Below are positions 3,455 through 38,549 of a DNA stretch of 64,000 nt, one piece after another. Below the pieces are notes generated by a model that was not told the origin of the DNA, did no database searches, and saw only the letters and a list, made by a program, of their open reading frames with translations. Every line of letters begins with the position of its first letter. Positions within the stretch are counted from its first letter, which is position 1. Origin of the DNA: an uncultured Lachnospiraceae bacterium (lineage in GTDB: Bacteria > Bacillota > Clostridia > Lachnospirales > Lachnospiraceae). The stretch covers positions 63,542-127,541 of the forward strand of contig CAJODN010000003.1 in assembly GCA_905233695.1 (NCBI GenBank), written 5' to 3'. A program made the position numbers and the translations under genes.

Positions 3455-4417
3455 TTGAACAGGATCTTAATAACGGGGTTTTCGGGATTTGTAAGCCGTC
3501 ATTTCTTGAATTATCTCTATGAGAACAAGAAGGAATTTCAGGTGCTTGGCGCTGACATCAATGAGCCTAAGATAGACATAGAGAGCTATAACGACGTCTT
3601 GGATGTCTCATTTACAAAATGTAACATGCTGGACGCCGATATGGTAGAGAAAGTGGTAGAAGATTTCGCCCCTGATTATATACTTCATCTTGCGGCATTT
3701 TCATCTGTTGCATATTCTTGGGAGCATCCCGCAGAGTGCTTCAGCAACAATACCATGATATTCCTGAATCTTACCAATGCGGTTAAGAACCTTAAGAAGC
3801 ATTGCAGAATCTTATCTGTGGGTTCATCGGAAGAATACGGTAATGTATCGAAGGATCAATTACCCCTTAAGGAAAGCATGGACTTAACACCGGTTAGTCC
3901 TTATGCTGTGGCAAGAGTATCCCAGGAGATGATGTCTAAGGTATATGTGGACAGCTTCGATATGGACATTGTTCTTACAAGAAGCTTTAACCATATGGGA
4001 CCTTATCAGGATGAGAGATTCGTTGTTCCTTCATTTATCAGAAGAATCCTTGATGTAAAGGAAGGCGGCCGAAGCGAAGGCATAATCGAGACGGGAGATA
4101 CGACGATTATCCGCGACTTCGTAGACGTAAGAGACGTTGTAAGAGCCTACTACGGACTCCTTATGGAAGGAACACCCGGAGAAGTATACAATATCTGCGG
4201 CGGTAAAGGCGTTGCCCTTTCCGAGATAATATCTGAGATAGCGGATATCGTGGGAGTTGATATTACGGGAAAGGTTAATCCTGAGTTCGTAAGACCTGAC
4301 GACAACAGACAGATTATAGGATGCGCCGACAAGATTAAGAACGACATCGGCTGGGAAGCTAAGATTCCGCTTCGTCAGACATTATCAGACATGGTAGAGA
4401 TCATGAAGAACAATTAA
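3455..4417 (+). CDS. rmd: GDP-6-deoxy-D-mannose reductase-like SDR (NAD-dependent epimerase/dehydratase)
   Basis: [52 protein letters not shown]; adjacent to gmd. Confidence 0.75.
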
Positions 4418-4442: not shown

Positions 4443-5489
4443 ATGGCAAAGAAAGCACTTATCACCGGTATTACGGGACAGGACGGAAGCTACCTCGCAG
4501 AGTTCCTTCTTGAGAAGGGATATGAGGTACACGGAATTATAAGAAGGTCTTCTATTCACTCTACAGAGAGAATCGACCATCTTCTTAAGGCAGGCACAAT
4601 TACAATTCATGACGGAGACTTATCTGATTCCTCATCAATTGTTAAGATTGTTAATCTCGTTAAGCCTGACGAAATCTATAACCTGGCTGCACAGTCTCAC
4701 GTAGGAGTGTCATTTGATGCAGCAGAATATACAGGTGATGTGGATGCCATCGGAGTTCTTCGAATATTAGAGGCTGTTCATATGCTTGGAATGGATAAGA
4801 CATGTCGTATCTATCAGGCGTCAACCTCTGAATTATACGGTAAGGTTGAGGAGGTTCCTCAGAACGAGAATACACCTTTCCACCCTTACAGCCCATACGC
4901 CGTTGCTAAGCAGTACGGCTTCTGGATGATGAGACAGTACAGAGAAGCATACGGTCAGTTCGCAGTTAACGGAATCCTCTTTAATCACGAGTCGGAGAGG
5001 CGCGGTGAGACATTCGTCACACGTAAGATTACACGTGCAGCAGGTCGTATCAAGATGGGAATTCAGGATAAGCTCTATCTCGGCAATCTCGACTCACTTC
5101 GCGATTGGGGATATGCCAAGGATTATGTGGAGTGTATGTGGCTTATAATGCAGCAGGACGAGCCTGATGATTATGTAATCGCAACGGGCGTTCAGCACAC
5201 TGTAAGAGAATTCACAACGCTGGCATTCAAGTATGTGGGAATCGACCTTGAATGGAAGGGCGAAGGCGTTAACGAGCAGGGTATCGATAAGGCTACGGGA
5301 AATGTTCTTGTGGAAGTATCGGAAGAATTCTATCGCCCTACAGATGTTGTTAACCTCTGGGGCGATCCTACCAAGGCTAAGACAAAGCTTGGATGGAACC
5401 CGCAGAAGACAAGCTATGAAGACCTTTGTCGTATAATGGCGGAGCATGACTTAGAGCTTGCCAAGCAGGAAGCAAAGTTAGCTGAGTAA
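4443..5489 (+). CDS. gmd: GDP-mannose 4,6-dehydratase
   Basis: [81 protein letters not shown]. Confidence 0.95.
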
Positions 5490-14623: not shown

Positions 14624-16237
14624 ATGAAGGCGGTAAGCATTTTAAATAAAATCGTATACGGACTGATTGCCCTGGTATTCTTGTTTATTATAGGTGTAAA
14701 TCTTTTAATTCAGAGACAAGATCAGTATTGGTCGTATTATGACTTTTCCGTTTCTCAGTGGATATTGTTTGTGTCTTCATTAATAATAGCCTTTGCTTTG
14801 ATTTTTTTCGGCAATATGTGTGCAAAAAGAGAAAGCACACAGAATACAAAACGTTATCTTATAGTTTTAATTATATCGACAGTGGTTCTGCTTGTTTTGC
14901 AAATAGTTATTGTTGATAATATTTTCTTTCAAGTCGGATGGGATGTGTCTTACCTAAAAGAGGCAGCAGAACAATATGTTGACAACAATTTAGACGAGTT
15001 TCACAAGCATTATTTTGAGAAGAATCCCAATAATATTTTTATGTATATAATTACAATTGCTTCTGTTGCAATTGGTAAATCCATAGGCTTTAACGGGTAC
15101 AAGGCTTTAGTCTATTTCGGTGTGGTTCTGAATAATTTATCTGTTTTTATGACATCACTTGTTGTATACCGAGTTTCTAAAAAACGTGCCTGGGGATATA
15201 TTGCCTACGTAGTGAGTGCACTGCTTTTCGGATTATCACCTTGGATGATAGCTCCATATTCCGATATTTTTTCTGTTTTAATATCTATATCCGGCCTTTA
15301 TATATTTTTAGTGGTCAGAGATTCCAAAATCAAATGGTATGTTAAGCCCATTCTCGTTGTAATACTACCTGGCATTGCCTATGCCATAAAACCAACCAAT
15401 ATATTCATTCTATTTGCCATAGCAATATATGAATTAATTCAATTAATAGGAAGACCGGATCGATTAAAAGCCCTTCTTAGAATCCTTATAGGAATCGGTG
15501 CTGCGGTAGCAGTCATTTTCTTGACGAAAGCCGTATCATATAAAATCATTGATTATAAGGTTAATGATAATTACGTTATGCCCATGAGTCATTATCTGCT
15601 ACTGGGATCGAACTATAATATGGTCGGTCAATATAATGGCATGGATGATGATTATACCTGTAGCTTCCCGAGTAAAGAAGAGAAATCGAAGGCGGATACA
15701 GAAGAAGTCATAAGACGATATAAAGAGATGTTCCCCGTACAATATATCAGGCATTTATGCAATAAGACATATCTTAATTTTTCCAATGGTATTTTGGGCT
15801 GGGGTAAAGAAGCCGGATTCGTAAATGAAATGTATGAAAACGACTCGACACTGGGAAATGCACTTCGAAGTTACTATTATTTGGGCGGAGACAATATTCT
15901 CCGAGAAGAAAATGCATTCCCTGAAGGAGGAGAAAACTTCTCGATTTTTGCCAACATGGCACAGATAATATGGTATATGCTTTTAATCCTTTGTTTTTTA
16001 CAATCGATAAGGTTGCTCTTTTTAAAAAAATCAATGTCTGAAGTAGACGTCGTGTCCCTAATCTCGGGAATTACGATTTTGGGAATATTTGTTTTCTTAA
16101 GCTTGTTTGAGACAAATGCAAGATATTTGTATTCGCTGCTACCGATATTTGTAGCCTATATTTTTGCAATCGGACATGATTATTTGCCACTCGGCAATAA
16201 GGATAATAAGAATGTTGGAGAAACGTATGGATCTTAA
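14624..16237 (+). CDS. Polytopic membrane protein, putative GT-C glycosyltransferase; paralog of 28362..29987
   Basis: Shared WYLLLGSNYN/HYLLLGSNYN...Y(G)Q core and IKPTN-like motif; about 12 TM. Confidence 0.7.
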   Translation: MKAVSILNKIVYGLIALVFLFIIGVNLLIQRQDQYWSYYDFSVSQWILFVSSLIIAFALIFFGNMCAKRESTQNTKRYLIVLIISTVVLLVLQIVIVDNIFFQVGWDVSYLKEAAEQYVDNNLDEFHKHYFEKNPNNIFMYIITIASVAIGKSIGFNGYKALVYFGVVLNNLSVFMTSLVVYRVSKKRAWGYIAYVVSALLFGLSPWMIAPYSDIFSVLISISGLYIFLVVRDSKIKWYVKPILVVILPGIAYAIKPTNIFILFAIAIYELIQLIGRPDRLKALLRILIGIGAAVAVIFLTKAVSYKIIDYKVNDNYVMPMSHYLLLGSNYNMVGQYNGMDDDYTCSFPSKEEKSKADTEEVIRRYKEMFPVQYIRHLCNKTYLNFSNGILGWGKEAGFVNEMYENDSTLGNALRSYYYLGGDNILREENAFPEGGENFSIFANMAQIIWYMLLILCFLQSIRLLFLKKSMSEVDVVSLISGITILGIFVFLSLFETNARYLYSLLPIFVAYIFAIGHDYLPLGNKDNKNVGETYGS

Positions 16238-17453
16238 GAAGAAAAAAGCATGGTTTCTGGGTTTTTTGGCAGTTGTGGAAGTATTGCTTTTCCTAAGAGA
16301 CTATGGTGGATATGTCAATTCATATAATTCATCTATCTATGCTTTGTCGTATAAGTACGGTTTTATGTCAAGGGGACTTGGCGGAACGATTTTTCGCTTG
16401 ATTAATAAGATTCTGCCCCTTGATATGATGAATTATAACGGAGTACTTAGATACTCTCAGGTGGTTACGGCAGTATTTATGCTGCTTGTTTGGCTTTTTT
16501 GTTTTTATATAATCCATAAGTCCGATGAGGATAATTACAGACATGTACAGATAGTATCAATTCTTCTTGCGGTATTTTCGATTCCGTTTTTTTCTAATTC
16601 TTACAATTTCGGAAGAGTAGATATTTATCTTGTGGCAACTGCAATAGTGTGTGTTCTGATTCTCCTTTGGAGAAAAATGGAATGGCTTATCGTTCCTCTT
16701 TCATGCTTTGCCGTAATGTTTCATCAGGCCTACGTATTTATGTTCTTCAATGTGACCCTTGTAATTCTCATATATAGATTCATTGAATCGGACAAAAAAG
16801 GAAGAATAAAATATTTAGTCCTGTTTATACTATCTTTTGTGGGGGCATCGGCACTGTTTCTGTATCTTAATTTCTATGCTCATACATCGGATATTAATGT
16901 ATATAACAGTGTGGTTGAAGATGCCGTTGCCCTGTCCAAGGAAGACGAGGGCTATCACAAAGCGCTTTTGCAGCACGAAGTTATGGGAATAGATCCCACA
17001 ACCTCCGAATGGGAGTATCATCTTAGGAACTTTGTGGAATTTCCTATTTTTATATTGATAATGCTACCATATATAATTCTTGTGGTTCGTGCGTTTGTAA
17101 ATGCAATAAAGCAGTCGGGCGAAACAAAAGACAAATGCAAGTATATAATTATGCTTGCCGGTGTGATTACAATAGTTCCGAATCTGATTCTTAAAGTAGA
17201 TTACGGTAGATGGGTATTCTCCATAATAATATATTATATATTGATTTTTGCATTTTTGATTGCAACAAGAGACAGAATGTTTTCCGCATTTCTTAACAGT
17301 GAGATTGGCAGGATTAAGACAAAACCTTATGTGCTTCTCTTTTATGTCTTGCCCCTTATGGTAACGCCCATGTGGGATGTTAACATATGTATGGTATCAG
17401 CACATCTCGGCGGTGATTTGAATAACAGCTTACTTCATTTATGGGTAGATTAG
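16227..17453 (+). CDS. SRG-family polytopic membrane protein, copy C (start moved from 16164 to 16227)
   Basis: NSYNSSIYALSYKYGFMSRGLGGTIF; NFGRVDIYL; FHQAYVFMFFN; KVDYGRW; GGAG RBS just before ATG 16227. Confidence 0.8.
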   Translation: MDLKKKKAWFLGFLAVVEVLLFLRDYGGYVNSYNSSIYALSYKYGFMSRGLGGTIFRLINKILPLDMMNYNGVLRYSQVVTAVFMLLVWLFCFYIIHKSDEDNYRHVQIVSILLAVFSIPFFSNSYNFGRVDIYLVATAIVCVLILLWRKMEWLIVPLSCFAVMFHQAYVFMFFNVTLVILIYRFIESDKKGRIKYLVLFILSFVGASALFLYLNFYAHTSDINVYNSVVEDAVALSKEDEGYHKALLQHEVMGIDPTTSEWEYHLRNFVEFPIFILIMLPYIILVVRAFVNAIKQSGETKDKCKYIIMLAGVITIVPNLILKVDYGRWVFSIIIYYILIFAFLIATRDRMFSAFLNSEIGRIKTKPYVLLFYVLPLMVTPMWDVNICMVSAHLGGDLNNSLLHLWVD

Positions 17454-17466
17454 GAGATCTTCATTA

Positions 17467-18699
17467 ATGAATACTGACACTAAGATAAGAAAGCAAAACT
17501 TAATATTTTTGTTGTCGCTTTTAGTATTTGCCATACTCTGCTTCTTAAAAGATTTCGGAAGCAATATGAGTTACTATAACTCTACCTTGTATTCCTTTTC
17601 TTATAAGTATGGATTCATCTCAAGAGGATTTGTGGGCACATGCTATCACCTTCTTAATAAGATAGTGCCATTTGATTTGATGACATATAATAGACTGTAT
17701 GTCTTTTCAATAATAATGACGGTAGTACTTCTTATAGTGATATTCTTGTTTTATTATTATTGCCTCAGTAAATGCAGTATCGATAACTTACATAACGTGA
17801 GAATGTTAATAGTATTCTTTTCCGTATTCACATTCTCTAACTTCTGGACACCGGAGAATCTGGGAAGAATCGACATATATTTTATAATGCTTCTCCTGTT
17901 ATCGGTAATACTCATTATTGAAGATAAGTGTGTATGGCTTATAATACCTCTTGTCGGAATATGTATGTGCATCCACCAGGGATTTACATTTACCAATGCC
18001 AATCTGATCCTTGCCCTATTGTTCTTCAAGGCTATGACGGATGAAGATAGTAAGATAAGGAAAAAATACTTAATATACTTTATTATTACATTTGCTGAAA
18101 TATCCGCATTATTCCTGTTCTTCGAATTCTTCAGCCATATCAGTGACACGGGAGTGGTTGATGAATTAATAAGTACCAGCATGAATCTTTCGAAAAGCGG
18201 AAGCGACTACAACGAGACGATTCTTAATCATGAGATTTTGGGACAGGGAGTGTTTGAGGACGAGATAGAATACCACATAATTAATCTTAGGGAACTGCCC
18301 TTCTTCCTTATAACATTTTGTCCGTATATTATAATTTTTATTATGTTCGCGAAGAGGCTTCTTAAGGGAGAAAAGGGCGGACGGTTACTGGGATATCTGG
18401 CGGTTGTACTTGGCGCTCTTACGCTTCTTCCGGAGATGATACTTAAGGTTGACTACGGAAGGTATGCATATTATACATTCTTCTATTACATTCTGATTGT
18501 TATTTGCCTTATTGTCATGAAGGATGATAAGACAATAAGTGTATTTAACAGCGTAAAGCAGTCGGTAAATGAAAAAATAAGTTTTGGGAAGCTTTTGATA
18601 GTCTATCCGCTCATTTTCATGCCGTTTTCAGATTGGTTTATATCTGATATTACCTTAAGACTATGTGATATATTTTTACCGGGGTGGCTATTTAGATAA
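17467..18699 (+). CDS. SRG-family polytopic membrane protein, copy D
   Basis: YYNSTLYSFSYKYGFISRGFVGTCY; NLGRIDIYF; IHQGFTF; KVDYGRY; PFSD. Confidence 0.8.
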   Translation: MNTDTKIRKQNLIFLLSLLVFAILCFLKDFGSNMSYYNSTLYSFSYKYGFISRGFVGTCYHLLNKIVPFDLMTYNRLYVFSIIMTVVLLIVIFLFYYYCLSKCSIDNLHNVRMLIVFFSVFTFSNFWTPENLGRIDIYFIMLLLLSVILIIEDKCVWLIIPLVGICMCIHQGFTFTNANLILALLFFKAMTDEDSKIRKKYLIYFIITFAEISALFLFFEFFSHISDTGVVDELISTSMNLSKSGSDYNETILNHEILGQGVFEDEIEYHIINLRELPFFLITFCPYIIIFIMFAKRLLKGEKGGRLLGYLAVVLGALTLLPEMILKVDYGRYAYYTFFYYILIVICLIVMKDDKTISVFNSVKQSVNEKISFGKLLIVYPLIFMPFSDWFISDITLRLCDIFLPGWLFR

Positions 18700-18707
18700 C
18701 GATTATT

Positions 18708-19934
18708 ATGAAGAAATTATTTGAAGATTCTAAGAAAAGAAACAATATAATATTTGGATTCCTGTGGACACTACTTACCATAGGCCTTTTTATGACATGG
18801 TATGCAAATTGGTGTAAGACCTATAATACATCACTTCTTGCAATATCATACAAATACGGCTTCACATCAAGAGGCCTTATCGGAACCATATATCAGACCT
18901 TAGGATCCTTTTTGGGAGTTGATATATGGACATATGGTGCGGCTAAGAATTTCTATTTTCTTTGCACTGTAATATTCTACGCTCTTTTTGCCGTTGCAAT
19001 GGTGATTGCATTAAGAAAGGCAGCAGTGGAAGAAAAGAAGATAATGCAGTATCTTATACTTCTTCTTACGATTTTTACGGTGCCCACCTTTGCATGTGAA
19101 TTTAACTTCGGAAGAATAGATATATTCATGCTTGCATCCAGTATAGCAGCCATAATCTTACTCTTGATCGAGAAAGCGGAATGGCTTGTTATACCCCTTA
19201 CAGCCATTGGTGTTATGTTCCATCAAGGCTACGTATTTATGTTTTACAATATCGTACTGGTAATCCTGTTCGTGAAGATCATAGATTCGGATAAGAACAA
19301 GAAGCGGAAATACATAGTTATCATGGTATCGTCGATACTGATTTGTTCGGCACTGTTTATATGGTTCCAGATTGTTTTCAGAGGCGGAGCAGCTCAGTAC
19401 TTTAATGAGATTCTGGAAAATGCGAAGCTCGTAGGAAGGAATGGCAAAGCGCATACTGATTTAATACGAGCTGAGATACAGGGTGTTGATCTGACAGAAG
19501 AAGAAAAAATATACAGATATTGTAATGTTGAAGAAATAATTGCCTGGGTAGTACTTATGTGTCCTTATATATTTATTGTACTTAGGACATTTGTAAGACT
19601 GATTAAGAAACAGAAAATGTTCTGGCAGAAGATGAAGTACCTGGCACTCGGAATCGGTTCTTTGACAATGCTTCCGGACTTTTTGTTTAAAGTGGATTTC
19701 GGTCGCTGGACATATGCGGTAATTTGCTACTATATGCTTGTCTTTATACTGATGATAGCATTGGGAGACAGGGATTTTATAGAAGAAACCCATAGAGATG
19801 TTAAGTCGGTAAGCGGCAAGGTATTTACCCCGCTCCTATTTGCTTATCCGATACTCTTTGTGCCCTTTAACGATATTGTTATAGCGGAATTAGTTGATAG
19901 AGTTTGTATCTTGGTAAGAAGTATAATGCCGTAG
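18708..19934 (+). CDS. SRG-family polytopic membrane protein, copy A'
   Basis: KTYNTSLLAISYKYGFTSRGLIGTIYQTLGSFLGVDIW; NFGRIDIFM; FHQGYVFMFYN; KVDFGRW; PFND. Confidence 0.8.
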   Translation: MKKLFEDSKKRNNIIFGFLWTLLTIGLFMTWYANWCKTYNTSLLAISYKYGFTSRGLIGTIYQTLGSFLGVDIWTYGAAKNFYFLCTVIFYALFAVAMVIALRKAAVEEKKIMQYLILLLTIFTVPTFACEFNFGRIDIFMLASSIAAIILLLIEKAEWLVIPLTAIGVMFHQGYVFMFYNIVLVILFVKIIDSDKNKKRKYIVIMVSSILICSALFIWFQIVFRGGAAQYFNEILENAKLVGRNGKAHTDLIRAEIQGVDLTEEEKIYRYCNVEEIIAWVVLMCPYIFIVLRTFVRLIKKQKMFWQKMKYLALGIGSLTMLPDFLFKVDFGRWTYAVICYYMLVFILMIALGDRDFIEETHRDVKSVSGKVFTPLLFAYPILFVPFNDIVIAELVDRVCILVRSIMP

Positions 19935-19944
19935 TGGAGATAAA

Positions 19945-21168
19945 ATGAAGAATTTTATTAAAAGCAAAGATTTTAAATTTTGGATTATACTTGGCATATT
20001 CGGAATTCTTTTTGTAATATGGAGCTTCGATAAGGAAATAATCCCACAGAATACAACACTCTATGTTATGTCATATGATTACGGATTCGTATCAAGAGGA
20101 CTGCTCGGAACAATATGGAGCGGAATTGGGAAGCTGACGGGACTTAATACAATGAGTTACGACGGAATATATGCATTGTCGAAGCTCATGCTCGTTGTAT
20201 TTTTAATAGTATTAATGCTGTTTTTCCTTCAACTTATCCTTAAGACAAAAGAGCAGGATAAGAAATACATGTATTATCTCATTGTGTTCTTTTCTATATT
20301 TAACTTTCCCTTTTTTGCAGACAAGCATAACTTCGGAAGGGTGGATGTAATACTTGTTATATTAACATTCATATGTTGCATGTTAATAGTTCAGGGAATC
20401 CTGGAATGGCTTGTGCCGATCCTTTGCGGTATTGCCATGCTGTTTCATCATGGATTTGTATTTATGTATGTAAATATTATCCTGATTCTGCTACTCTTTA
20501 AGGCGTTAAAGGATACCACGAAGATTTCACGTAAATATATGGCGCTGTTTGTTATCACGCTTTTGGTGGTTTCCGCTCTGTTTATTTATTTTGAATTCAT
20601 TTCGACTTATGATCTAACAGAGGCACAAGGGCAGCAAATGATTGAATATGCCAAGAGTCTGTCCTTAGATGGCGAAGAATACGGCGAGTCGCTTATCAAT
20701 CACGAAGTCTTCGGCAAAGACGTATTTGCAGACGAATGGCTGTATCATGTGATTTGTTATGTGGAAACACCAATCTTTCTTGTTCTGTTTTCACCGTATA
20801 TCGTTTTATTTGTTTTATTCTTCAGAAATGTTTTAAAAGATGCAAAAGGTGATAAACTGACGTTTTTTAAATATCTTATGTTGCTCCTTGGCGGTGCCAC
20901 CAATTTGCCGGAGTTAATACTTAAGATTGATTACGGTAGGTATGCATACTCACTCACATTCTATTATCTCGGAGCAATTCTTTGTCTGATGGCGATGGGA
21001 GATAAGATAATATGGTCTAATATCAAGTCGCTTATGCATACCGTTAAGACGAAAGTGTATGTCGCAGAGATATTGGTGGCGTATCCTATCATATATATGC
21101 CATTTTATGATGTATATATCTGTAAAGCAGTGGGAAGACTTTTATATCATGGCTTTGGTCTTGGATAA
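19945..21168 (+). CDS. SRG-family polytopic membrane protein, copy B'
   Basis: MKNFIKSKDFKFWIILGIFGILFVIWSFDKEIIPQNTTLY, as in copy B; the first 59 nt match 6792-6850 exactly. Confidence 0.85.
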   Translation: MKNFIKSKDFKFWIILGIFGILFVIWSFDKEIIPQNTTLYVMSYDYGFVSRGLLGTIWSGIGKLTGLNTMSYDGIYALSKLMLVVFLIVLMLFFLQLILKTKEQDKKYMYYLIVFFSIFNFPFFADKHNFGRVDVILVILTFICCMLIVQGILEWLVPILCGIAMLFHHGFVFMYVNIILILLLFKALKDTTKISRKYMALFVITLLVVSALFIYFEFISTYDLTEAQGQQMIEYAKSLSLDGEEYGESLINHEVFGKDVFADEWLYHVICYVETPIFLVLFSPYIVLFVLFFRNVLKDAKGDKLTFFKYLMLLLGGATNLPELILKIDYGRYAYSLTFYYLGAILCLMAMGDKIIWSNIKSLMHTVKTKVYVAEILVAYPIIYMPFYDVYICKAVGRLLYHGFGLG

Positions 21169-26065: not shown

Positions 26066-28348
26066 ATGAAAGCAATAATTCTAGCAGGAGGTTCGGGAGA
26101 TAGGCTTTGGCCCCTGTCTCGAAAGAATTATCCTAAACAATTCATACAATTTAATAATGAGAAATCTTTATTCCAAGATGCAATCACAAGAAACATACCT
26201 TTTTGTGATGAATTTATTATTGTTGCCAATAAGGAATATGAGGAGATAATCGAAGGACAATTAAAACAATTTCAATCTGTAAAGTATACGCTCTGCATGG
26301 AAGAGGAAAGCATGGGAACAACCATGGCACTCTCCTTTGCATTGCAGGATATAAAGGATAATGAAATAGTATTCGTGGTACCTTCGGATCTTCTTATTAA
26401 CGGAAGCACATATTCCAATCACATATATGCTGCTAAGGATATTGCCAAGACCGGACGCATCTGTCTCTTCGGAATCGTACCAAGCAGTAGCAATAATTCC
26501 TATGGTTATATTCGCCACACAGAAGGAAAGGTAGAAAGATTCATTGCCTATCCCTCTGAAGAGATGGCTAAATCCTTATTTACGAAGACTGATGTATATT
26601 GGAACTCGGGAATGGTTATTGCCAAGTCGGAGGTACTGAAACAGGAAATAAAGACTTATTGCGGTGACGTATTATCGCTAAGCGAAGAAGATATAAGAGA
26701 TATAAGGAATTTCGATACCGCTGTTCTTGCAAAGTCTCAGATTGTATCCGTGGAAGAATTTGATTGCTCTTGGATAGATATATGTGATTTTGAATCTTTT
26801 AATGAGTCTATTGTTACAGGCTACGATAATGCCATTTTATCCTGGTGCAACAATGTGGATGTGCTTAATACATCCTCTAATCAGCTTGTAGTTGCCAATG
26901 GAATTGACAATGCATACATTGTTAATACGCCGGACGCTGTCTATATTACCGATAAGGACAAGGCGGAGCGTATAAAGGATATTCTCCGGGAAAATTCCAA
27001 GATAGCGAGTAAGTTCGAGCATAGCTACATAGACAACAGACCATGGGGCATAAGAGAGATTCTAAAAAAAGAGCCGGGCTTTAGAGTAAGAAAGATTACG
27101 ATATTCGCAGGTCTAAAACTATCTAATCATATGCATAATAAGAGGAATGAGAACTACACCGTGGTATCGGGTGTTCTAACCATAGAACTGGACAATGAAG
27201 TTATAGAGCTTCATGAAGGTGAATCCTATAATGTTGAACCGAACGTTATGCATCTTCTTCGAAATAACACCGACGAAGATGTAATCTTAATAGAGGTTGA
27301 CACAGGCGGTGAAATTGATGAGTGGGATATGGTTCATGAGGATGAATTCGCAAGAAGCATTAATGCACCGGATAACAGTAAGTTTCCCAATATATATAAG
27401 CTTACGCCTGCATATAAGGATTATCTCTGGGGCGGCAATAAGCTTAAGGAAATATATAAGAAGGATACCCCTTATGAAGTCACGGCAGAGTCATGGGAAC
27501 TATCTGCCCACAGAGACGGTCCATCCATAATCTCGGGTGGCGAATATGACAATGTAAGCTTTAAGGAGTTTATTGATAAATACAAGACTTTGGTTTGTGG
27601 CTGGAAGTCAGATGTCTTTGACACATTTCCCATCCTTATTAAGTTTATTGATGCAACCAATTCTCTGTCAATTCAGATACATCCTGAGGATGATTATGCA
27701 TTTGTCAATGAAAATGAATTCGGTAAGAATGAGGTGTGGTATATCCTGGATTGTGATGAAGATGCATATCTCTATCTTGGTCTTAACAGAGACACCTCTA
27801 AGGATGAGATTAGAAGAAAGGTTAAAGACAAGACAATTACCGATATTCTTAATAAAGTATATGTTAAGCCGGGAGATGTATTATTCGTTCCGGCCGGAAC
27901 AATACACGCTATCGGAAAAGGAATCTTAATCTGCGAGATACAACAGAATTCCAATAGTACATACAGATTATATGATTATGACAGAAGAGATAAGAACGGC
28001 AATCTCAGAGAGCTTCACATGGACAAAGCCATGGACGTAGTTAACACGGATAGATTCGAGATTACTACCGACGGAGTTGGCGAGGTAATAAAATACGCGA
28101 GATCGGAGCAGAGGCTTCTTTGTGAATGCAAATACTTTGAAGTAAAGTATTACGATATACCGAAGCATGAAATAATAATGATAGATGATTCGTCTTTTAA
28201 GTCAATAGTTGTTATTGAAGGTGAGTGTAAGATATCTTGTAACGAAGAAGAACAGGAAGCAAAACCGGGAGACAGTTTCTTTATATCAGCGGGAAGAAAG
28301 AGGGTGCATATTATAGGTGAATGCAAGCTGATAGTAACAAATATCTAA
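26066..28348 (+). CDS. Fusion: mannose-1-phosphate guanylyltransferase + cupin (PMI type II-like) + type I mannose-6-phosphate isomerase
   Basis: AIILAGGSGDRLWPLSRKNYPKQF; RPWGIREILKKEPGFRVRKI; then YLWGGNKLKE...LSIQIHPEDDYAF...GKNEVWYIL...PAGTIHAIGKG. Confidence 0.85.
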   Translation: MKAIILAGGSGDRLWPLSRKNYPKQFIQFNNEKSLFQDAITRNIPFCDEFIIVANKEYEEIIEGQLKQFQSVKYTLCMEEESMGTTMALSFALQDIKDNEIVFVVPSDLLINGSTYSNHIYAAKDIAKTGRICLFGIVPSSSNNSYGYIRHTEGKVERFIAYPSEEMAKSLFTKTDVYWNSGMVIAKSEVLKQEIKTYCGDVLSLSEEDIRDIRNFDTAVLAKSQIVSVEEFDCSWIDICDFESFNESIVTGYDNAILSWCNNVDVLNTSSNQLVVANGIDNAYIVNTPDAVYITDKDKAERIKDILRENSKIASKFEHSYIDNRPWGIREILKKEPGFRVRKITIFAGLKLSNHMHNKRNENYTVVSGVLTIELDNEVIELHEGESYNVEPNVMHLLRNNTDEDVILIEVDTGGEIDEWDMVHEDEFARSINAPDNSKFPNIYKLTPAYKDYLWGGNKLKEIYKKDTPYEVTAESWELSAHRDGPSIISGGEYDNVSFKEFIDKYKTLVCGWKSDVFDTFPILIKFIDATNSLSIQIHPEDDYAFVNENEFGKNEVWYILDCDEDAYLYLGLNRDTSKDEIRRKVKDKTITDILNKVYVKPGDVLFVPAGTIHAIGKGILICEIQQNSNSTYRLYDYDRRDKNGNLRELHMDKAMDVVNTDRFEITTDGVGEVIKYARSEQRLLCECKYFEVKYYDIPKHEIIMIDDSSFKSIVVIEGECKISCNEEEQEAKPGDSFFISAGRKRVHIIGECKLIVTNI

Positions 28349-33456: not shown

Positions 33457-33492
33457 TGTATAGATAGAAGAGATAAGAAAGGAAATGTGGTT

Positions 33493-34557
33493 ATGAAGAC
33501 TTACGGTGTAATTATGGCAGGTGGCGGCGGAACAAGATTCTGGCCTCTTTCAAGACATGAGGTTCCGAAACAGCTTCTCAATCTGTCGGGAAAAGAGAAG
33601 ATGATTAACGAGACCATTGACAGAGTATCAACACTTGCAGACAAGGATGATATCTTCGTTGTTACCAATGTGGATCAGGTTCCGGGAATGAAGGCTGCAA
33701 CGAAAGGACGACTTAAGGAAGACCATATCCTGTCAGAGCCTTCCGCAAGAAATACGGCAGCGTGCATAGGATATGCCGCACTTGAAATCGTCAAGAAATA
33801 CGGCGACGGAATAATGTGTATTTTCCCGTCGGATCATTTTATCAAGGATGAAAGTTCATTTACAAGAATCTTAAAGGAAGCCATTAAGGTTGCTGAAGGC
33901 GGTTCACTTGTGACTCTCGGTATCACACCCACATTTCCCTCAACGGGATACGGTTATATCAAGTTCGATAAGAGCGAAACAACTCTTGATAAGAAGGTGG
34001 TGGAATTCAAGGAGAAGCCTGACGAATTCACAGCCAAAGCTTACGTTGATTCCGGTGAATACTCATGGAATTCGGGAATGTTTGTATGGCAGGCTTCGGT
34101 TATCTTAGAGGAGTTCAAAGCTCTGCTTCCCGATGTGTATACTTGCCTCGAGAAAATCAAAGATGCATTGGGTACTCCCGGGGAAGTAGAAGTAATTAAC
34201 GAAGTCTATCCCACAATTCCGAGTATCTCAATTGACTATGGAATAATGGAGAAGTCTGATAAGGTTCGTGTAATCTCCGCCGAAATGGGCTGGAATGATG
34301 TGGGAAGCTGGGACAATCTTGGTGTCCTCTACGATGAAGACTCTGACGGCAACATCACTGCAGGAGACTTCCTGGGAATTGATACGAAGAATTGTATAAC
34401 ATATTCAAGAAAGCGTCTTATATCGACAATTGGCGTTGAAGACCTAATCATTGTTGAGACGGATGATGCGATTATGGTATTAGATAAGAATCGTGCACAG
34501 GATGTTAAGAAGATAGTCGATGCGCTGAAGGAGCAGGGGAGAGACGAGCTACTATAG
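33493..34557 (+). CDS. manC: Mannose-1-phosphate guanylyltransferase (stand-alone)
   Basis: YGVIMAGGGGTRFWPLSRHEVPKQLLNL; GWNDVGSWDNL; ATG 33493 preferred over GTG 33487. Confidence 0.9.
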   Translation: MKTYGVIMAGGGGTRFWPLSRHEVPKQLLNLSGKEKMINETIDRVSTLADKDDIFVVTNVDQVPGMKAATKGRLKEDHILSEPSARNTAACIGYAALEIVKKYGDGIMCIFPSDHFIKDESSFTRILKEAIKVAEGGSLVTLGITPTFPSTGYGYIKFDKSETTLDKKVVEFKEKPDEFTAKAYVDSGEYSWNSGMFVWQASVILEEFKALLPDVYTCLEKIKDALGTPGEVEVINEVYPTIPSISIDYGIMEKSDKVRVISAEMGWNDVGSWDNLGVLYDEDSDGNITAGDFLGIDTKNCITYSRKRLISTIGVEDLIIVETDDAIMVLDKNRAQDVKKIVDALKEQGRDELL

Positions 34558-36824: not shown

Positions 36825-38549
36825 ATGGGTTACAAGGAAGAATATAACAAATGGTGCACGGATCCTTACTTTGACGACGATACCAAGGCGGAGCTTGTAA
36901 TGCTCCTGGGAAATGAGACGGAGATAGAGGACAGATTCTACAGAAGCTTGGAATTCGGAACCGGTGGACTTCGCGGAGTCATCGGTGCAGGAACCAACAG
37001 AATGAATATCTACACGGTTCGCCAGGCAACACAAGGTCTCGCCAACTATATCGTTAAGCAGGGTGCTCAGGATAAGGGTGTTGCCATTGCATACGACTCA
37101 AGAAATATGTCGCCGGAATTTGCAACTGAGGCGGCTCTTTGCCTTAATGCCAATGGTATTAAGACTTATCGTTTCGAGTCGCTTCGCCCCACACCGGAGC
37201 TTTCATTCGCAGTAAGATATCTGGGCTGTACAGCGGGTATTAACGTTACGGCAAGTCATAACCCGAGAGAATATAACGGATATAAGGTGTATTGGGAGGA
37301 CGGCGCGCAGATCACACCGCCTCACGATACAGGAATTCTTGCGGAGGCAGCAGCCGTTACCGATTGGTCTATGGTTAAGACAATGAGCCAGGCTGATGCT
37401 GAAGCACAAGGTTTATTCAATACAATCGGTGCTGAAGTTGATGACGCATATATGGAAGAGCTTAAGAAGCAGTCAATCCATCCCGAGATCATTAAGGAGA
37501 TGGCATCAGACTTCAAGATTGCTTATACACCGCTTCACGGCACAGGCCTTAAGCCCGTAGAACGCGTGCTCTCTGAGCTTGGTTTTGAAAATGTGTATGT
37601 GGAGCCGGAGCAGGCTGTTGCGGACGGTAACTTCCCGACGGTTGCTTACCCCAATCCCGAGTCGCCCAAGGCGTGGGAATTGGTTCTTAAGCTTGCCAAG
37701 GAAAAGGATGCGGACATTGTTCTCGCAACAGATCCCGATGCCGACAGATTAGGTGTATACTGCAAGGATAATAAGAGCGGCGAGTACGTGTCATTTACCG
37801 GTAATATGTCAGGAATGCTTATTGCCGAATATATCATGAAGGAAAGAATCGCTACAGGCACAATGCCTGAGAATCCTGCATTCATCGAGACAATCGTGTC
37901 TACTAATATGGGACATCTTATTGCGGAAGATTATAATGTCAAGCTTATCGAGGTTCTTACGGGATTCAAGTATATCGGTGAGCAGATTAAGATATTCGAA
38001 GAGACAGGCTCTAACAATTATATCTTCGGAATGGAAGAGAGCTATGGATGCCTTGCCGGAACTTATGCAAGAGATAAGGATGCACCTGTTGCGGTTATGC
38101 TTCTCTGTGAGGTTGCATCTTACTATAAGAAGCAGGGTAAGACTCTCTGGGATGCAATGCTTGACCTGTATGAGAAGTATGGTTACTTCAAGGAAGGTCA
38201 GGAAGCAATCACTCTTAAGGGTGTAGAAGGAGCATCTCAGATTAAGGAGATGATGGATAACGCAAGACAGAATCCACCTAAAGAGCTTGGCGGATACAAG
38301 GTACTTTCCGTAAGCGATTATAAGGCTGATACGAAGACAATTACTGCAACCGGCGAGACAACAAAAACCGGACTTCCGGAGTCTAACGTTCTCTACTACG
38401 AACTGGAAGATAATTCGTGGGCATGTATCAGACCTTCCGGCACCGAGCCTAAGATTAAGTTCTACTTTGGCGTGAAGGGAACTTCTATGGAAGATGCGGA
38501 TGCGAAGCTTGAAGGGTTACATAAGAATTTGATGGAGATGTTCTCGTAG
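36825..38549 (+). CDS. Phosphoglucomutase / phosphomannomutase (alpha-D-phosphohexomutase)
   Basis: GTGGLRGVIGAGTNRMN; TASHNPREYNGYKVYWEDGAQITPPHD; ATDPDADRLG; RPSGTEPKIKFY. Confidence 0.95.
   Translation: MGYKEEYNKWCTDPYFDDDTKAELVMLLGNETEIEDRFYRSLEFGTGGLRGVIGAGTNRMNIYTVRQATQGLANYIVKQGAQDKGVAIAYDSRNMSPEFATEAALCLNANGIKTYRFESLRPTPELSFAVRYLGCTAGINVTASHNPREYNGYKVYWEDGAQITPPHDTGILAEAAAVTDWSMVKTMSQADAEAQGLFNTIGAEVDDAYMEELKKQSIHPEIIKEMASDFKIAYTPLHGTGLKPVERVLSELGFENVYVEPEQAVADGNFPTVAYPNPESPKAWELVLKLAKEKDADIVLATDPDADRLGVYCKDNKSGEYVSFTGNMSGMLIAEYIMKERIATGTMPENPAFIETIVSTNMGHLIAEDYNVKLIEVLTGFKYIGEQIKIFEETGSNNYIFGMEESYGCLAGTYARDKDAPVAVMLLCEVASYYKKQGKTLWDAMLDLYEKYGYFKEGQEAITLKGVEGASQIKEMMDNARQNPPKELGGYKVLSVSDYKADTKTITATGETTKTGLPESNVLYYELEDNSWACIRPSGTEPKIKFYFGVKGTSMEDADAKLEGLHKNLMEMFS

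Follow-up and report, generated by a model that had tools for sequence, protein, structure and literature searches.

Bacterial GDP-mannose pyrophosphorylase (GMP) is described in the literature as a simple dimer with largely independent subunits, and the human enzyme as a complex with inactive regulatory subunits (PMC9424295). GMPPA, a GMP paralogue without catalytic activity, binds GDP-mannose and acts as an inhibitor of GMPPB (PMC11228364). Within GMP, the lysine of the EKP motif touches the sugar-side phosphate, Mg2+ is bound by a pair of aspartates, glutamates are responsible for guanine recognition and phosphates are anchored by the Arg of GGxGxR (PMC9424295), with the roles of GMP residues also treated in a second study, which places dimerisation in a beta-helix region C-terminal to the nucleotidyltransferase domain (PMC9168903). 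Two further systems serve here for comparison: the bifunctional ManC/AlgA (TIGR01479, type II PMI-GMP; e.g. XanB, PMC11237706), in which a nucleotidyltransferase is followed by a cupin, and the type I phosphomannose isomerase (PMI) ManA (TIGR00218; Bacillus 1qwr).

In the window, by which we mean the whole 64,000-nucleotide stretch of Lachnospiraceae DNA analyzed, an uninterrupted reading frame at 26066-28348 (+) translates into a 760-aa protein comprising, in this order, a ManC-like nucleotidyltransferase (residues 1-312), a cupin (313-430) and a type I PMI (441-760), with Pfam matches all above cut-offs (NTP_transferase 2-247, Cupin_2/MannoseP_isomer 324-424, PMI_typeI_cat 443-544 and MPI_cupin_dom 686-758), just as the earlier note had proposed for a ManC-cupin-ManA fusion (Table 1). 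The protein shares the nucleotidyltransferase-cupin order with ManC/AlgA but departs from it in the loss of GMP residues, in an H for Q in the cupin, in the added type I PMI and in its score against the bifunctional GMP_PMI family TIGR01479 (244.2 bits over residues 2-425 vs. an equivalog cut-off of 372.95). Residues 441-760 match ManA with all motifs intact and score above the cut-off of the NCBIfam ManA model TIGR00218 (175.6 vs. 116.2 bits), whereas stand-alone ManA does not have the 440 residues that precede the PMI in the fusion. Among solved structures, the Bacillus PMI 1qwr came nearest to the C-terminus, and GDP-mannose pyrophosphorylases came nearest to the N-terminus. A full-length AlphaFold model (pTM 0.39, 13 sequences) was too poor for use; a model of the N-terminal half (pTM 0.61) had GMP structures as its top fold matches, but the pocket geometry was left unread because the nucleotide loop (residues 10-22) had a pLDDT of <50. 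Given that the full fusion was found in all eight searched genomes of the genus, with 74-100% identity, and in many other genera, it is no assembly or frameshift artefact.

Table 1. Coordinates in the window of the fusion, its parts and neighbouring pathway genes.
Feature	Position	Strand	Basis or remark
N-terminal ManC-like nucleotidyltransferase, residues 1-312	26066..27001	+	Pfam NTP_transferase, 113 bits
Residues 77-86, CMEEESMGTT replacing xxxEPxxRNT	26294..26323	+	guanine-contacting E79 kept; Pro and Asn lost
Residues 161-163, Ala-Tyr-Pro replacing catalytic Glu-Lys-Pro (EKP)	26546..26554	+	alignment
Short beta-helix-like segment, residues 269-308, matching the bacterial GMP dimerisation domain	26870..26989	+	PF22640, 23.3 bits, below the cut-off of 27
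Type II PMI-like cupin, residues 313-430, with a His-His-Glu-His metal set	27002..27355	+	PF07883, PF01050
Variable linker between cupin and PMI, residues 428-440	27347..27385	+	18% mean identity, dN/dS ~0.93 in the genus
Type I phosphomannose isomerase, residues 441-760	27386..28348	+	TIGR00218 manA; 1qwr match, E=1.1e-59; motif table
Separate single-domain ManC (mannose-1-phosphate guanylyltransferase)	33487..34557	+	all six scored catalytic residues
Phosphoglucomutase/phosphomannomutase-family protein, candidate for the Man-6-P to Man-1-P step	36825..38549	+	PGM_PMM I-III domains
Gmd, GDP-mannose 4,6-dehydratase, GDP-mannose consumer in the same cluster	4443..5489	+	TIGR01472, 526 bits, cut-off 415

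The best PDB relatives of the nucleotidyltransferase domain, by sequence and by fold, are GDP-mannose pyrophosphorylases. When it was aligned with the T. maritima GMP and 51 stand-alone ManC homologues, EKP was found intact in all 51 homologues but replaced by AYP in the window protein, and this motif is absent from all eight congeners; in addition, EPxxRNT has become EExxxGTT and DxGSW has become DICDF. The nucleotide and Mg2+ residues R13, K24, E79, D108 and D238 (D259 in T. maritima numbering) are retained. All six scored residues were complete in each of the 51 stand-alone homologues (28 single-domain and 23 with a cupin) vs. only 16 of the 43 fusions, and the branches differ in what has gone, EK in some and R13 in others. 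These piecemeal losses look like repeated loss of catalysis, with an older, still active state possibly persisting in some genera. G8, G9, K24, E79, T85 and D108 do not vary among the 43 fusions, and the nucleotide-binding signature GGxGDRLWPLSR..PKQF, together with E79 and D108, ranks with the best conserved parts. With considerable confidence, we predict from these residues that the domain no longer makes GDP-mannose in this genus, a reading that is not universal since the 16 fusions mentioned keep all six residues; residual or altered catalysis may be left in the window protein, which still has its two Mg aspartates (D108 and D238) and the Arg that binds phosphate.

A separate ManC sits 5 kb downstream of the fusion. 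Single-domain ManC was found in 44 of 45 fusion genomes vs. 6 of 62 family members devoid of the fusion (Fisher p ~3e-22, a value that overstates independence, given the relatedness among the genomes), with the fusion genomes covering 34 genera; the E-value limits of the ManC searches differed (1e-20 and 1e-60), and at 1e-60 the count for fusion genomes was still 44 of 45. The two genes lie within 1.5 kb of each other in 12 of 44 pairs and within 30 kb in 23 of 44, a few fusion ends having been estimated from partial matches, and several pairs are <60 bp apart on the same strand. Co-occurrence alone would be equally expected if the fusion were merely a PMI in need of any ManC. Elsewhere in the window, a second NAD-dependent epimerase/dehydratase of the GDP_Man_Dehyd Pfam family (3455-4417), scoring below all NCBIfam equivalog cut-offs, adjoins Gmd, and four successive and alike membrane proteins of ~410 aa, with a common motif like SYKYGFxSRGLxGT, occupy positions 16164-21168.

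The cupin had been regarded in the earlier note as having an altered, decaying metal motif, with the Q and the second His of HxH changed. The sequence quoted there is correct, reading LSNHMHNKRNENY, and an H does occupy the Q position; in the proper register, however, the supposedly missing His falls on a non-ligand position, and all four metal ligands are present (H355, H357, E362 and H396). The first position of the metal motif is Q in type II ManC, as in two examples (L062 and L063); with H at this position in the window protein, GLKLSNHMHNKRNENYTVVSG conforms to the consensus for cupins in general, G(X)5HXH(X)4E(X)6G, H396 being the fourth ligand. The full HHEH set occurs in 40 of 43 fusions, and R360, N400 and E410 are near-invariant; the type II signature QxHxHRxEHW is not kept, the genus reading HMHNKRNENY. 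Three fusions are devoid of cupin metal ligands, showing PDAH or IEVY for HHEH (L015:1498-3942, L115:1366-3849 and L122:1498-3750). We reject a decayed cupin on the ligand counts and because, within the genus, no other domain of the fusion is as well conserved; judged by its residues, the nucleotidyltransferase is the decayed part, and the idea of decay had been aimed at the wrong domain.

Among seven distinct congeneric sequences, the cupin had the highest mean identity (86%), ahead of the PMI (79%), the nucleotidyltransferase (72%) and the linker (18%). Nei-Gojobori dN/dS in the genus followed the same order (~0.03, ~0.05, ~0.08 and ~0.93), values that we trust for ranking and for the linker contrast alone because synonymous sites are near saturation. 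Purifying selection acts on all three domains of the fusion, and the linker, by these estimates, is evolving near neutrally. The separate ManC, with a dN/dS of 0.04, is under stronger constraint than the fused nucleotidyltransferase.

The PMI motifs QxHPxD, GKxExWY, PAGTxHAI and EIQQ...TYRxYD are intact in the window protein and in all 20 tabulated fusions, in agreement with the intact type I PMI recognized earlier and with the match to Bacillus 1qwr. Since this PMI is intact and the fusion is the sole type I PMI found in its genome, it very likely acts as the isomerase, and we predict its catalytic activity with hardly any reservation. Of the proposal that it had replaced a decayed type II PMI, the part concerning an intact type I enzyme is supported, while the cupin is not decaying. 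Other PMI arrangements were also seen. In other Lachnospiraceae, a glycosyl hydrolase family 1 domain precedes type I PMI (L077:1270-3573 and, in a shorter frame of 575 aa, L064:71-1798), and a 609-aa ORF (L078:1558-3387) carries type I PMI with a PHP domain after it. PMI matches also lie within open frames of ~620-650 codons (G352, G224, G264, G429, G210, G363, G271, G442 and others), which suggests further PMI fusions with a putative partner.

As to how often the fusion occurs and whether its cupin always decays, a survey that the earlier note had called for, the fusion was found in 41 of 397 sampled Lachnospiraceae genomes (our own tally of single-frame matches covering the N-terminal part and the PMI), and cupin decay is not general, as the ligand counts above indicate. 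Two more fusions were found in other families of the same class (G691 and G663), and among 300 phylum-wide genomes none was found besides that of the window's own genome. The genomes sampled include MAGs, and the named relatives are mainly Lachnospiraceae MAGs, many of them ruminant-derived. In unrooted trees, both of which contain long branches, the 43 fusions form one side of a branch for the nucleotidyltransferase domain (support 100/100) and again for the PMI (92/86, and 90% of bootstrap trees). Since each end forms a single clade, one fusion event would explain both, and the three-domain protein fits the product of such an event. In other Lachnospiraceae (e.g. L018, L019 and L046), the same three domains occur as adjacent ManC-cupin and manA genes in two neighbouring ORFs; in contrast to the fusion, their ManC keep all six residues on a separate branch, and their PMIs are not the closest to the fusion PMI. 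An origin from these pairs is unsupported, with both their ManC and their PMI on other branches. L018, L019 and L045-L056 represent a distinct ManC-cupin subfamily (SKQF, EPCRRDTFPA and VCPVDPYV), often adjoining manA, on a long separate branch of 2.17 changes per column. In the open-licence literature searched, we found no paper on a fusion of these three domains, nor any on a pseudo-GMP from bacteria.

We surmise that, in these organisms, Man-6-P would come from the fused type I PMI (F6P/Man-6-P step) and GDP-mannose from the separate ManC. The nucleotidyltransferase fold, devoid of the residues that join Man-1-P and GTP, would still hold a guanine nucleotide and Mg2+; together with the cupin, this pseudo-ManC would bind GDP-mannose or GTP and signal feedback to the attached PMI, and/or pair with the intact ManC encoded nearby. 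Two considerations guide this reading: 1) with catalytic residues lost and nucleotide and Mg2+ residues kept, the module most likely binds GDP-mannose or GTP; 2) as the separate intact ManC would make GDP-mannose, the N-terminal half probably serves in sensing or docking instead of being an additional enzyme. We infer that GMP activity has been lost and that the module binds nucleotide and acts in feedback or docking, and we give an even chance to a type I PMI that carries a pseudo-ManC and cupin module for nucleotide-binding feedback and/or ManC docking. Reportedly, the title of a 2002 H. pylori paper names PMI-GMP as a control point. More tentatively, and with somewhat less than even confidence, the fusion may be an independently evolved bacterial GMPPA-like GDP-mannose sensor, by which the end product would control the first step and the PMI would be coupled to the separate ManC. 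In the main reading, too, the pseudo-ManC would act much as the inactive human GMPPA does in sensing GDP-mannose for the active GMPPB. As with human GMPPA and the plant KJC regulators, a cell with an active GMP also has a second GMP fold, and by sequence the catalytic residues are lost while the genome encodes an intact GMP as well; unlike these regulators, the pseudo-GMP here is bacterial, fused to a PMI and cupin-bearing, its ligand and partner are putative, and the likeness is one of functional analogy rather than of demonstrated descent.

Several other explanations have to be weighed against feedback or docking. Rather unlikely, in our judgment, is that the N-terminal half binds no regulatory ligand and serves only as a scaffold for structure or oligomerisation, or as an arm for docking ManC, leaving a PMI with an inert appendage. 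The nucleotidyltransferase as the fastest-evolving of the three domains (72% mean identity), the piecemeal loss of catalytic residues and the beta-helix region behind this domain, which is the GMP dimerisation site (PMC9168903), would all suit a scaffold, but a pure scaffold has no need for a nucleotide-binding signature that is among the best conserved parts, nor does retention of the cupin ligands in 40 of 43 fusions speak for it. As for the multi-enzyme of the earlier note, with an active GMP and a decayed cupin PMI replaced by type I to lead from F6P to GDP-mannose in one chain, the architecture was correct, the cupin in this genus does deviate from the HxHRxEHW signature of type II and, in other genera, 16 of 43 fusions are complete for the six scored residues; this model is nevertheless improbable, as evidenced by the replacement of the catalytic lysine with EKP gone in eight of eight congeners, the loss of EPxxRNT, the separate intact ManC in 44 of 45 fusion genomes and a cupin that is ligand-complete and the most conserved domain.

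An EKP-type lysine is a common element of this class of nucleotidyltransferase enzymes. It bears on the proposition, to which we give little credence, that the domain acts on another sugar-1-phosphate or nucleotide and that its changes reflect a new specificity; retention of R13, K24, E79, D108 and D238 and continuing purifying selection are compatible with this, but the lysine lost is the one contacting the sugar-side phosphate in GMP (PMC9424295), and residues are lost in varying combinations across the fusion family. Very doubtful is a second active isomerase or metal-dependent enzyme in the cupin, making two PMI sites per chain: the complete HHEH set, the near-invariant R360, N400 and E410 and the high conservation in the genus would agree with an enzyme, but the surroundings of the ligands have changed from HRxEHW to KRNENY in the genus, and a further isomerase would be redundant beside an intact type I PMI.

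If the reading of a PMI with a regulatory or docking pseudo-ManC is true, bacteria would have their own counterpart of the human regulatory subunits, in the form of a widespread pseudo-ManC joined to the enzyme that opens the pathway. It would also serve as a warning that domain content alone may mislabel fusions from gut and rumen Lachnospiraceae as GDP-mannose synthases.
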